Origin: Blattabacterium cuenoti
GTDB taxonomy: Bacteria > Bacteroidota > Bacteroidia > Flavobacteriales > Blattabacteriaceae
Length of the DNA: 64,000 nucleotides
Assembly (NCBI RefSeq): GCF_014252335.1
Contig: NZ_CP059218.1
Coordinates: forward strand, 455,078 to 519,077
Reading direction: 5' to 3'
Shown: positions 5,844 through 27,647 of the stretch, piece after piece
Position numbering within the stretch: the first letter of the stretch is position 1
Layout of the letters: each line of letters begins with the position of its first letter
The notes under the pieces: generated by a model
What the model saw: only the letters and a program-made list of their open reading frames with translations
Databases searched by the model: none
What the model was told of the DNA's origin: nothing
Translations under genes and position numbers: made by a program

Positions 5844-6371
5844 GTTTTAAAATATATTAATAAAGTATTTGTTTATTATTAATTTTTATTTTATATAATA
5901 AAATATATTACGCAAGCAATAACATTTTCATACTAGTAAATATGTTCCTAATTGATGATAATAATATTTTTTAAAAGAAGGATTGATAATATTATATATA
6001 CCATCCATACACTATTCACCACACCACGATCCATAGCTTGAGATATGTCATAATAAAGCTTATTTTACAACAATAGGATATGATAAGCTTAAGAACAACT
6101 AATGCTGCAGACAATGACTATATTTTTTTTGTATTTAGTTGAATATAATACCTATTATGATAATTGTTTCTGTATGTTTATAAATAACAACAAAATATAT
6201 TCATTTAATGTGTTTATTATAATATTGATTTTTAATATATCCAATAAAAATGATATTTTATATTGTGATAATCATTATTCAATAATCTACAAAACATCCT
6301 ATAATTTACAATGTTTATAATAGTCAACAACCATTTAATGAATAAAAAAACGTATTTTGAGTTATAAAAAT

Positions 6372-7169
6372 ATGTCTATATTGTTTCATACAAAATTATT
6401 AAATAAAAAACATAAAAATGGACTTACAATAATTTTTTTGCATGGGTTTATGGAAAATATGAATATTTGGAATGAAATTGTGAATATTCTTTCTATAGAA
6501 TATAATATAATTTTAATAGATTTTCCCGGTCATGGAAAAACTCCTTTTGTAGAAAAACAAATACCTCAAATTTTAACCATGGAGAATTTATCATATTCAT
6601 TAGAATTATATTTAAAAAATAATAATATAACAAAAGCATTTTTTATAGGACATTCTATGGGTGGATATGTTGCTTTAGCACTCGCCGAAAAATATCCTGA
6701 AAGATTTTTAGGATTATGCTTACTTCATTCTACAGCAAACTCAGATTCTGAAGAAAAAAAAAAATATAGAATTAATTCAATTCCCATGATTATTAATAAT
6801 TATTCATTATTTGTTACGCGTAGTATTGAAAAATTATTTAATTTTAATAAATTTCATTCTTTTAAAAAAGAAATTAACTATCTCACAAAAATAGCGTTAT
6901 CAATTCCAATTAACTGTATCTTAGCTATGATAAGAGGTATGTTTATTAGAAAAGATAGAAGACATGTATTACAAAATACTACGTTTCCAAAATTATATAT
7001 TATCGGATCATATGATTCTATTCTTAAAAAAGAACTTCTTATTGAAGAATCTAAAATAGGCTATAATACTTGTTATAAAGAAATTCCAACTGGACATCTT
7101 GGTCCAATAGAAAATCCAAAATATATTGTACAAATACTACAAAATTTTATATATAATAAAATATTATGA
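6372..7169 (+). CDS. alpha/beta hydrolase
   Basis: This is an alpha/beta-fold hydrolase of 265 residues from the ATG at 6372; the frame also opens from a TTG at 6357. The oxyanion HGF motif is near residue 24, the nucleophile elbow GHSMGG puts the Ser near 95, the likely acid is in GSYDS near 216 and the catalytic His is in GHLGPIENP near 242, so the triad looks intact. Substrate is unknown; such enzymes in Bacteroidota are annotated only broadly. It ends four bases before the inferred TTG start of the cyclo-ligase gene, suggesting one transcript. Confidence 0.88.
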   Translation: MSILFHTKLLNKKHKNGLTIIFLHGFMENMNIWNEIVNILSIEYNIILIDFPGHGKTPFVEKQIPQILTMENLSYSLELYLKNNNITKAFFIGHSMGGYVALALAEKYPERFLGLCLLHSTANSDSEEKKKYRINSIPMIINNYSLFVTRSIEKLFNFNKFHSFKKEINYLTKIALSIPINCILAMIRGMFIRKDRRHVLQNTTFPKLYIIGSYDSILKKELLIEESKIGYNTCYKEIPTGHLGPIENPKYIVQILQNFIYNKIL

Positions 7170-7173
7170 TATT

Positions 7174-7775
7174 TTGAATCAAAAAGAAATTATTAGAAAA
7201 AAATATTTGTTTTATAGAAAACATTTTTATAAATCAAAAATATTATTTAACAGTTATAAAATATTTATGCAATTGAAACAATTAATTATATGGAATCATA
7301 CTTATTATCATATTTATTTGCCTATCAAAAAACAAAATGAACTTGATACATTTATTATTATTAATTTTCTTTTAAAAAAAAAAAAATTGTAACAATTCCT
7401 TTTTTAAATTTTGATACAACATGCATTGACAATTGTTTATTTAACTACCAAATTGCTAAACATACAACAAAAAATAAATATGGAATTATTGAACCAATAA
7501 ATAAGATTATAATTCCAAATTATTTTATTGAAGTAATATTTATTCCATTAATAATATTTGATTTAAAAGGATATAGAATCGGGTATGGTAAAGGATTTTA
7601 TGATAAATTTATTACATTATGTAGTAATAATATTTTAAAAATTGGTCTTTCTATGTTTTCTCCTATTAACAATATACAATCAGTCCATAAAAATGATCTT
7701 ATACTAGATATTGTAATTACTCCAAATAAAATATTTTTTTTTAATAAAAAAATACTTTCAAAATATCCCATATAA
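7174..7775 (+). pseudogene. 5-formyltetrahydrofolate cyclo-ligase, frameshifted at an A13 tract
   Basis: This family (MTHFS, also called YgfA or Fau) converts 5-formyl-THF to 5,10-methenyl-THF. The first half starts best at TTG 7174, giving NQKEIIRKKYLFYRK, the usual family beginning. It runs to a run of 13 A (7374-7386) and then hits a stop at 7390. The second half continues in the -1 frame from 7386 to the stop at 7773-7775 and carries the hallmark GYRIGYGKGFYDKF near the active site. One extra A (14) or a -1 slip would join them into a protein of about 200 residues, the normal family length. It may be a fresh pseudogene, a sequencing error, or a gene rescued by slippage on poly(A). Its tail overlaps rseP by 35 bases on the opposite strand. 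Confidence 0.85.
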
Positions 7776-9099
7776 TCATTATAAACATTATAAATGATAT
7801 AATAATAAATCCAATTATATTACTTTTTTCAATAAATTTTTCAGAAATTGTTTTATTAGTAATTATTTCAAGGATAATAAATAAAATATAACCTCCATCT
7901 AATGATGGAATTGGAAAAAAATTGACAAATGCTAACCAAATTGATAAAGTACCTGTTAAGACCCAAAATATTTCCCAATTCCATTCAGAAGGAAGTTCTT
8001 TTGCTATTGAAAAAAAACTACCCAGTTGTTTATACGCTTTAGTTTTAATGTAAAAAACATTTTTAAAAAATAAAATTTGATTTTTAAGTACCATAAATGT
8101 ACGTATAGTACCATGATAAATAGATCCCAAAATAGAATATTTATGTTTTTCAAAAACAAAAATATTATCCATATCTATAAAACTTTTTAAATAAATTCCT
8201 ATAATACCTTGTTTATTTAAAAAACATGTTGTTTTGATTAATTGTTGCTTTCTATTCAACAAAATAGAAATAAGTTTATTTTTATTTTTATATAAAATAT
8301 CTTTAATTTGATCAGAAAATAAAACTATATCTGAATTAATTGATAATATTTCATCATTTTTTTTAAGTCCACATTTATACGCTAACGAATTTTTAACAAC
8401 ATCATTTATTATTGGAGGAACACGAGGTTTTATGATAAATTCTTTTTTATCAAATATCATTTTTTTTTGTTCATTCTTTAATAAGACATGAATAATTTTC
8501 CCCATACGATCAATAGTAATATCTTTTCCCAATAAAATTTCTTTTGAAATATCATTAAAATATGGTATGACTTTATCATTGATAAATAATATTTTATCTC
8601 CATTTTTAAAGCCTATTTGTTTTCCTAAAGAATCAAATTCAATTCCATATTTAAGATTGTTGGTCGGTAATTTGATTTCTCCATATAAAAATAATAAACC
8701 AGAAAAAATCAAAATTGATAATAAAACATTGAAAATAATTCCTCCAGATACTATTAATAATCTTTTTATTGCAGATTTATAATAAAATTTTATATTATTA
8801 TTTGCTATTTTAGTATTTGAAAAACCATTATTATGTTTTATTTTTACCTTTTGATTTTGATTCTCCCTGTTCATGCCATATATTTTAACATATCCACCTA
8901 AAGGTAACCATCCAATTCCATAAATAGTATTTCCTATTTTTTTTTTATAAATAGTAAACCAAGGATCAAAAAATAACATAAACTTTTCCACATGTACTTT
9001 AAACATTTTAGAAAAGGCAAAATGACCTAATTCATGAATAATTACTAAAATAGAAAGACATAGTAACATTTGTATGGTTTTCACTAATATTTCTATCAT
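7741..9099 (-). CDS. rseP: RIP-family zinc metalloprotease RseP
   Basis: RseP is a site-2 intramembrane protease that cuts anti-sigma factors or remnant signal peptides in the inner membrane. The 452 residues show the zinc motif HELGH at 22-26 in the first membrane segment. Two PDZ-like domains follow (GDKILFINDK and NDEILSINSD regions), then the second conserved motif NFFPIPSLDGG around residue 390-400 and C-terminal membrane helices. All catalytic elements are intact. It diverges from feoA across about 100 bases. No anti-sigma factor is visible in the window, so its substrate here is unknown. Confidence 0.93.
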   Translation of the reverse strand: MIEILVKTIQMLLCLSILVIIHELGHFAFSKMFKVHVEKFMLFFDPWFTIYKKKIGNTIYGIGWLPLGGYVKIYGMNRENQNQKVKIKHNNGFSNTKIANNNIKFYYKSAIKRLLIVSGGIIFNVLLSILIFSGLLFLYGEIKLPTNNLKYGIEFDSLGKQIGFKNGDKILFINDKVIPYFNDISKEILLGKDITIDRMGKIIHVLLKNEQKKMIFDKKEFIIKPRVPPIINDVVKNSLAYKCGLKKNDEILSINSDIVLFSDQIKDILYKNKNKLISILLNRKQQLIKTTCFLNKQGIIGIYLKSFIDMDNIFVFEKHKYSILGSIYHGTIRTFMVLKNQILFFKNVFYIKTKAYKQLGSFFSIAKELPSEWNWEIFWVLTGTLSIWLAFVNFFPIPSLDGGYILFIILEIITNKTISEKFIEKSNIIGFIIISFIMFIMIIWDILKVFFY

Positions 9100-25373: not shown

Positions 25374-27647
25374 TTATGAATGTTGCTGTCTAGCTATTTT
25401 TGTTGCTGTTGTCATATTTTTCAATGAATTTATAACTTCATGCCAAGTTCTAGTTTTTAATCCACAATCTGGATTAATCCAAATATTTTTAATAGGCAAT
25501 TTTGTTGAAGCTTTATTAATTAAATTTAATATTTCTTTTACTTCAGGAATCCTTGGAGAATGAATATCATATACACCAGGACCTATTTCATTTTGATATG
25601 AAAAATTAGAAAATGCATTCAAAAGTTCCATTTTAGATCTTGCAGTTTCTATAGTAATTACATCAGCATCTAAATCAGAAAGATATTTTATAATATCATT
25701 TACCTCACTATAACAGATATGTGTATGAATTTGTGTTTCATCTTTAACTACACTGGAAGATAATCGAAATGCTTTAATTGCCCAATTAAAATAAAATTTC
25801 CAATGTTTATTTTTTAATGGCAATCCTTCTCTTAGTGCTGGTTCATCTATTTGAATAATTTGAATACCAGTATTTTCTAAAGATTTTACTTCTTCTCTAA
25901 TTGCCCATGCAATTTGATAAGCAGTTTCATAATATGGTTGATCATCTCTTACAAATGACCATTTTAACAGAGTAACTGGTCCAGTTAATATTCCTTTTAT
26001 TAATTTGTTGGTTTGAGATTGAGCAAACGATATCCATTTTACAGTCATATCAGAAACTCTTTTTACATCTGCATAAATTATTGGTGGTTTAACACATCGA
26101 CTACCATAACTTTGTACCCATCCGTTTTTTGTAGAAACAAAGCCTTTTAATTTATCTGAAAAAAATTCTACCATATCGTTTCTTTCAAATTCACCATGTA
26201 CCAAAACATCTAAATTAATTTTTTCTTGTGTTCTTATAGCATCTATTATAACTTTCTGTATACATTGTTCATATGTCTTTTTAGTAATTACATTATTTTT
26301 GAAATTTTTTCGTAATTTTCTGATTTCCTTTGTTTGAGGAAATGACCCTATAGTTGTAGTTGGAAATAACGGAAATTGAAATTTTTTTTGTTGTGTTTTT
26401 TGACGAATATGAAAAGAATTTTTTCTATTGAGATGTACTTTTGTTATTTGTTGTTTAATAATACATTGTTTTTTTTTGTCAAAATATTTCAAATTATTAC
26501 ACAGTTTTTCTTTATTCCCATTTAAAATATTTTCTAAATCATTTAATTCATAAAGTTTTTGTTTAGCAAAAGCCATTTTATTTATTATATTTTTCGAAAT
26601 TGATGTTTCACATTCTAAATCAATCGGTATATGCAATAACGAACAACTAGGGGCAATCATAATTCTTTCTTTACCTAATTTTAATATTGCTTGTTTAATA
26701 AGTTTGATAGAATGAGTATAATTATTTTTCCATATATTTTTTCCATTAATTATACCTAAAGAAAGTCCCATTTTTTGTTTTTGCAAAAAATCTAAAATTT
26801 TAGTTAATTGACTATAATTTTCTACTAAATCAATATGTAAATTAAATCTTGAAGACAAATTTTTAAATATATCTAAATTTTTTTCTTCCAAACTATCAAA
26901 ATAAGAAGTTACAATTATGTTAATTGCATTATCATCACAAATTTTATTTATAGTTTGATAAACATATTTAAATGATTTTATTATTTGATCAGTTAATGAA
27001 TCAAAAACTAAAATTGGTTCATCTAGTTGTATCCATTTAATATTTTTTTGAATTAAACGTTGTATAATCTCTATGTAAATAGGTAATAAATTATCTACTA
27101 AATCGAATTTATTAAAAATTTTATTTTTTTCTTTACCTAAATATAAATAACTAATAGGTCCAATTAAAACAGGTTTTGGAATAGCTTTATTTATTATTTC
27201 TTTATATTCATCAATTTCATTAAATAATTTCATAGAATAAATTCCAAATTTTTGATTTGGTTCAAATTCTGGTACTATGTAATGATAATTTGTATTAAAC
27301 CATTTAGTCATTTCCATGGCTTTTAAATCCAATTCATTTTTTTGAATTCCTCTAGCCATAGCAAAATAAATATCTATATCTTCCTTAAATTTAGTAGAAT
27401 ATACTTCTGAAATATTACCAAGTAAAAATGACATATCTAAAACATGATCATAGAAACTAAAATCATTACATGGAATTAAATCTATTCCACATTTTTCTTG
27501 TATTTTCCAATTATTGATTTTTATTGTTTTTCCAATATTAAATAAATCTTTTGAAGTAATTAGATTATTCCAGTAATCTTCACAAGCTTTTTTCAATTCT
27601 CTTTTTATTCCTATTCTAGGATAACCTAAATTATGTTTCAACATCAT
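25374..27647 (-). CDS. metE: cobalamin-independent methionine synthase MetE
   Basis: MetE methylates homocysteine from 5-methyl-THF polyglutamate without B12. The 757 residues match the full two-barrel enzyme. The catalytic zinc ligands are visible in the C-terminal half: His and Cys in THICYSEV, Glu in ITIETARSKME, and Cys in INPDCGLKTRTW. The N-terminal barrel begins NLGYPRIGIKRELKKA as usual. Its presence means the organism can finish methionine synthesis, tying it to the folate pathway that the frameshifted cyclo-ligase also serves. ATG codons occur at 27647 and 27644; either may be used. No SAM or B12 riboswitch is seen in the short upstream spacer. Confidence 0.96.
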   Translation of the reverse strand: MMLKHNLGYPRIGIKRELKKACEDYWNNLITSKDLFNIGKTIKINNWKIQEKCGIDLIPCNDFSFYDHVLDMSFLLGNISEVYSTKFKEDIDIYFAMARGIQKNELDLKAMEMTKWFNTNYHYIVPEFEPNQKFGIYSMKLFNEIDEYKEIINKAIPKPVLIGPISYLYLGKEKNKIFNKFDLVDNLLPIYIEIIQRLIQKNIKWIQLDEPILVFDSLTDQIIKSFKYVYQTINKICDDNAINIIVTSYFDSLEEKNLDIFKNLSSRFNLHIDLVENYSQLTKILDFLQKQKMGLSLGIINGKNIWKNNYTHSIKLIKQAILKLGKERIMIAPSCSLLHIPIDLECETSISKNIINKMAFAKQKLYELNDLENILNGNKEKLCNNLKYFDKKKQCIIKQQITKVHLNRKNSFHIRQKTQQKKFQFPLFPTTTIGSFPQTKEIRKLRKNFKNNVITKKTYEQCIQKVIIDAIRTQEKINLDVLVHGEFERNDMVEFFSDKLKGFVSTKNGWVQSYGSRCVKPPIIYADVKRVSDMTVKWISFAQSQTNKLIKGILTGPVTLLKWSFVRDDQPYYETAYQIAWAIREEVKSLENTGIQIIQIDEPALREGLPLKNKHWKFYFNWAIKAFRLSSSVVKDETQIHTHICYSEVNDIIKYLSDLDADVITIETARSKMELLNAFSNFSYQNEIGPGVYDIHSPRIPEVKEILNLINKASTKLPIKNIWINPDCGLKTRTWHEVINSLKNMTTATKIARQQHS

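Follow-up and report, generated by a model that had tools for sequence, protein, structure and literature searches.

The ygfA gene of the Blattabacterium genome under study (G000; 567,897 bases), assigned to 5-formyltetrahydrofolate cyclo-ligase (5-FCL), is split over two reading frames at a run of 13 adenines, and the comparison with congeneric genomes strongly supported that it is a gene still in use. We consider that its in-frame mRNA is probably supplied by slippage of RNA polymerase on the adenine run. The window in which the gene was analysed is a stretch of 64,000 nucleotides (contig positions 455078-519077), and the positions of the features are summarized in Table 1.

Table 1. Features discussed in the text, numbered from the first base of the window; entries with the prefix C1 lie outside the window of G000.
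Feature	Position	Strand	Remarks
ygfA (5-FCL, PF01812)	7174-7775	+	Full-length, split over two frames
ygfA, upstream half	7174-7392	+	Residues 1 to ~68; TTG start at 7174; out-of-frame TAA at 7390-7392, just past the poly-A
A13 run	7374-7386	+	Site of frame loss; one base short
ygfA, downstream half	7386-7775	+	Different frame; stop TAA at 7773-7775; bears the cyclo-ligase signature
GYGKGFYDKF	7581-7610	+	5-formyltetrahydrofolate cyclo-ligase signature; aligned to the solved cyclo-ligases 1sou and 1sbq
Alpha/beta-hydrolase gene	6357-7169	+	Directly upstream of ygfA; own A11 run at 6754-6764, in frame
rseP-like protease gene	7741-9099	-	Overlaps the last 35 bases of ygfA; feature boundary
metE	25374-27647	-	PF01717 and PF08267
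pth (peptidyl-tRNA hydrolase)	C1:549210-549808	-	Split by A11, one base short
rnpA (RNase P protein)	C1:120646-121007	-	Broken at A9, one base short

The split cyclo-ligase gene is real. The first-pass annotation had described two halves of the enzyme in different frames, joined at A13 and one base from an intact frame, with the signature retained in the second half. The exact coordinates confirmed this arrangement and located the signature, and the spacer between the conserved ...FL and TIP motifs agreed with the missing base, as it was 20 nt long in G000 against 21 nt in most intact relatives, so ygfA is one base short; two intact relatives had spacers of 24 and 27 nt. The downstream frame is already open ahead of A13 and stays so up to its stop codon. 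Aligned with the intact orthologue of the closest genome (G006), in whose protein they are contiguous, the upstream half matched residues 2-67 with 74% identity and the downstream half residues 68-202 with 79%. The downstream half alone scored 58.6 bits for PF01812 (cut-off 27) and contains the GxGKGxYD motif. The gene thus resembles known YgfA/MTHFS members of PF01812 in domain, length and signature and differs from them in being spread over two DNA frames, in a genus where serine hydroxymethyltransferase (SHMT) was not found. Fission of the gene into two proteins was rejected, because no start codon yields the catalytic half: the downstream frame offers no start before the ATG at 7653, which lies past the signature and gives a product of 40 aa. 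A single protein could therefore be made only if the frame is restored. In G000, ygfA starts with TTG (7174-7176); the sister genome G006 and most relatives checked use ATG, and this TTG is a second possible loss of expression.

The recurrence of the break was monitored in a panel of 49 Blattabacterium genomes (G000 and 48 congeneric ones; one assembly per species). The ygfA gene was present in all 49, and its frame was broken at the homologous poly-A site in nine, with runs of A10 in G037 and G047, A11 in G001, G026, G027 and G043, A12 in G041, A13 in G000 and A15 in G014. Six of the broken copies were one base short and three (G026, G027 and G047) two bases short, and none was longer than the frame requires. 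Every break was a simple contraction of an uninterrupted run by 1-2 nt, and in most intact relatives a G or some other base breaks up the homologous run. When placed on a tree built with 11 neighbouring genes (3542 codons), the breaks mapped to the whole clade {G043,(G047,(G041,G001))}, to the whole clade {G026,G037} and to the lone tips G000, G014 and G027. As two whole clades and three single tips are broken, the frame must have been lost at least five times, and because run length varies within both broken clades the run has kept moving. The break of G000 is private among the genomes compared, and it could be young, perhaps too young to show decay. When all the runs of A10 or longer at this site were counted (n = 13), 4 were in frame, 6 one base short and 3 two bases short; these values, near one-third for each phase, match the expectation if phase is neutral while the sequence is not. 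In all nine broken copies the cyclo-ligase domain was free of further stops and frame breaks, and neither advanced decay nor loss of ygfA was seen in any of the 49 genomes. In one broken strain, G001, the lysine of the signature is replaced by glutamine (GYGQGFYD); this was rejected as proof of inactivation, for the Thermus protein 1wkc also has glutamine there (GHGQGFYD).

The other runs of A10 or longer inside ygfA, located elsewhere in the gene and in other genomes, were all in frame (7/7). A second long run of A10 to A13, about 36 codons before the signature, occurs in G002, G012, G013, G016, G019 and G044 and is always in frame. Phase tolerance is thus not uniform along ygfA, which counts against an explanation by slippage rescue. 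Six of these seven in-frame runs belong to one clade, and their state may reflect shared ancestry; alternatively, the tolerance of phase could be special to the broken site.

Selection on the two halves was estimated with the run omitted and the halves aligned separately. With branch lengths set proportional to the 11-gene tree, and with synonymous sites near saturation on long branches, omega for both halves was 0.116 within the two broken clades as compared with 0.111 for the background, and omega = 1 was rejected in the broken clades (2dlnL 582). The first-pass annotation had named an elevated non-synonymous to synonymous ratio in the second half among the signs that would speak against expression; the downstream half alone gave 0.118 in the broken clades and 0.126 at the G000 tip as against ~0.104-0.105 in the background, and was thus not elevated. 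The G000 tip value for both halves (0.144) did not differ from the background either. Within the four-member clade, the two internal branches, which are most simply read as already broken, showed an omega of 0.111 (2dlnL 180 against omega = 1). Pairwise estimates, which are free of the assumption of proportional branch lengths, ranged from 0.06 to 0.18 for broken strains, similar to the 0.10-0.25 of intact pairs. Furthermore, neutral decay simulated over the four-member clade produced 9-12 stops per half at the lowest rate tried, against none observed. No signal of selection for run purity was found in the broken lineages, the all-AAA lysines being expected by chance (p ~0.3). These patterns of sequence constraint make ordinary pseudogene decay unlikely.

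The metabolic context of the enzyme was also examined. G000 encodes FolD, MTHFR, GcvT and two formyltransferase-type proteins, which indicates that one-carbon folate metabolism is active. SHMT (glyA, PF00464) scored above cut-off in none of the 49 genomes and was detected in all 14 control genomes. A side reaction of SHMT is the usual source of 5-formyl-THF, and the cyclo-ligase that handles this by-product has been kept in all 49 genomes even though SHMT was not found. With SHMT not found, the cyclo-ligase would act at low flux, in repair or salvage, a role that would explain how fractional expression could suffice. The first-pass annotation had linked the gene to folate use by metE; metE does lie in the window, but it says little about ygfA, since SHMT was not found in the panel.

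The broken copies might instead be young pseudogenes, in which the fast mutation of poly-A runs gives the first lesion too recently for further damage to have followed. The private break of G000 beside its intact sister, the simple form of each contraction and the possibly low demand for the enzyme where SHMT was found in no genome would all be in keeping with this. Recent loss is, however, difficult to reconcile with the breaks shared by 4/4 members of one clade and 2/2 of another, and with the constraint on the internal branches of the first. The lack of any additional stop or indel in the nine copies, the lack of advanced decay or gene loss in the panel and the in-frame state of the other long A runs inside ygfA also stand against it, and we regard this explanation as unlikely.

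If the gene is still used, its frame could be restored in the following way. Contraction of the poly-A run would remove the frame at the DNA level, and RNA polymerase slipping on the A run would yield mRNAs of mixed length, of which the fraction with one extra A would be in frame and give the full protein. This fraction may suffice for the repair of a metabolite in low demand (5-formyl-THF to 5,10-methenyl-THF). A long run in any phase would then produce some in-frame mRNA, making phase nearly neutral and allowing repeated breaks while the amino-acid sequence stays constrained. The genomes themselves show the break, its return at one site, the lack of other lesions and the ordinary level of constraint; rescue by slippage is likely, and the proportions of the mRNAs and the low demand for the enzyme are presumed. 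The proposal of the first-pass annotation that the gene may still be expressed through slippage was thus partly borne out: the same-site breaks in eight other genomes were added in its favour, and slippage itself is what we infer.

The frame could also be restored by the ribosome rather than by RNA polymerase, through a -1 shift on the slippery run (T TTA AAA and then A AAA AAA). The zero-frame codons CTT TTA AAA AAA of G000 contain a classic slippery heptamer of the type X XXY YYZ (T TTA AAA, where the run begins), and a shortage of one base needs exactly a -1 shift, which fits the phase of six of the nine broken genomes. The remaining three (G026, G027 and G047) lack two bases and would require a different shift, even though G026 and G047 have close relatives in the -1 phase. 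Slippage of RNA polymerase can serve all three phases, whereas the -1 ribosomal shift can serve only those six genomes. A programmed ribosomal frameshift aided by a stimulatory structure was rejected, as the 84 nt past the run contained no such structure (z = +0.7), and no known RNA element was found near the run by Rfam matching. The locus therefore resembles dnaX-type programmed -1 frameshifting in its A-rich, slippery zero-frame heptamer and differs from it in having no downstream structure, no phase conserved among relatives and no second product of known use. A ribosomal shift is accordingly quite improbable as the source of the full protein. Loss of mismatch repair was rejected as a cause of the differences in run stability between strains, MutS and MutL being present in 49/49 genomes.

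Because homopolymers are a classic site of sequencing error, the behaviour of other long runs in the same assemblies was used as a control. In 14 neighbouring genes across the 49 genomes, 321 of 323 sense-strand runs of A10 or longer were in frame and 2 were broken, as compared with 9 broken of 13 at the ygfA site (Fisher p ~3e-13, uncorrected for shared ancestry). The rseP-like gene contributed 36/36 in-frame sense runs across the panel. Throughout the G000 genome, 89 of 91 sense-strand runs of this length, including two of A15 and five of A13, were crossed by an unbroken homologous frame, and the two broken ones were those of ygfA and pth. Scans of ~420 kb each found 146 in-frame long A runs in G041 and 95 in G047; within these scans no gene besides ygfA was broken at a long A run in each of G041, G047 and G000, and the scan of G041 found no other long sense-strand A run that was broken. 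The run in the adjoining hydrolase gene is A11 in G000 and A14 in G006, a shift of three that keeps the frame, unlike that in ygfA. In G031, the hydrolase gene is broken at A12. The in-frame control runs of the same assemblies make a generic homopolymer error unlikely, and these same controls leave it very unlikely that the run length was mis-assembled or varies among the genome copies of a polyploid symbiont with some or all copies in frame.

Slippage of RNA polymerase at ygfA would have precedents in other insect symbionts. Genes frameshifted at poly(A) runs and rescued by transcriptional slippage are known from Buchnera and Blochmannia (Tamas et al, 2008; Wernegreen et al, 2010; reviewed and extended in PMC3017870). 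The ygfA gene shows the features of that class, namely an indel in an uninterrupted poly-A run, frames that are otherwise open, no acceleration and retention across lineages. As in those cases, the host is an AT-rich insect endosymbiont, the lesion is a single poly-A indel with both halves otherwise open, evolution is not accelerated, the frameshift is common to several species, and pth is affected in both. The present case differs in belonging to Bacteroidota and not to a gammaproteobacterium and in having at least five origins at one site over 49 genomes, and slippage in Blattabacterium is proposed here on the basis of DNA sequences. In the Buchnera transcriptome, insertions of a single base are the prevailing errors within A/T runs and become more frequent in longer runs, and no transcription error restored a frame (PMC5574713); this absence of frame-restoring errors stands against slippage rescue. 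Another poly-A run, that of tssM in Citrobacter rodentium, has its frame restored by transcriptional frameshifting (PMC4256274). Like ygfA, tssM is interrupted within a homopolymer. Its rescue takes place in the RNA, as is proposed for ygfA, but, unlike the present case, was demonstrated experimentally and concerns a single lineage. No prior report of a ygfA frameshift in Blattabacterium was found in the literature searched, which is weak evidence of novelty; the phenomenon is a known one in a new host group of a different phylum, with unusually good comparative support. The locus bears on the live disagreement between the reports of poly-A rescue in Buchnera and Blochmannia and the later Buchnera transcriptome. 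With nine long runs broken and four intact at the same position, under full sequence constraint and in collectable species, the locus offers a natural experiment that makes the idea of slippage rescue testable. If slippage rescue holds, some annotated pseudogenes in AT-rich symbionts work, and metabolic reconstructions are wrong to leave them out.

Two further genes of G000, pth and rnpA, are broken at poly-A runs outside the window (Table 1). The pth gene also appears in two pieces in a further seven genomes of the panel (G011, G021, G025, G026, G027, G037 and G048). Peptidyl-tRNA hydrolase is essential in E. coli, and the break in an essential gene makes some form of rescue likely. It is quite possible, though we put it forward tentatively, that throughout Blattabacterium the phase at long poly-A runs is effectively neutral in some genes of low demand and even in essential ones (ygfA, pth and rnpA), since their expression would tolerate every phase, the out-of-frame DNA being stable and inherited in whole clades. 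Such neutrality of phase, if true, would extend slippage-dependent expression to Bacteroidota as a lasting mode and not as a stage of decay. The pth gene of Blochmannia vafer is likewise frameshifted at a poly-A run (PMC3017870), and rnpA is the single pseudogene reported for Blattabacterium strain Bge, where it carries an in-frame stop (PMC2768785).
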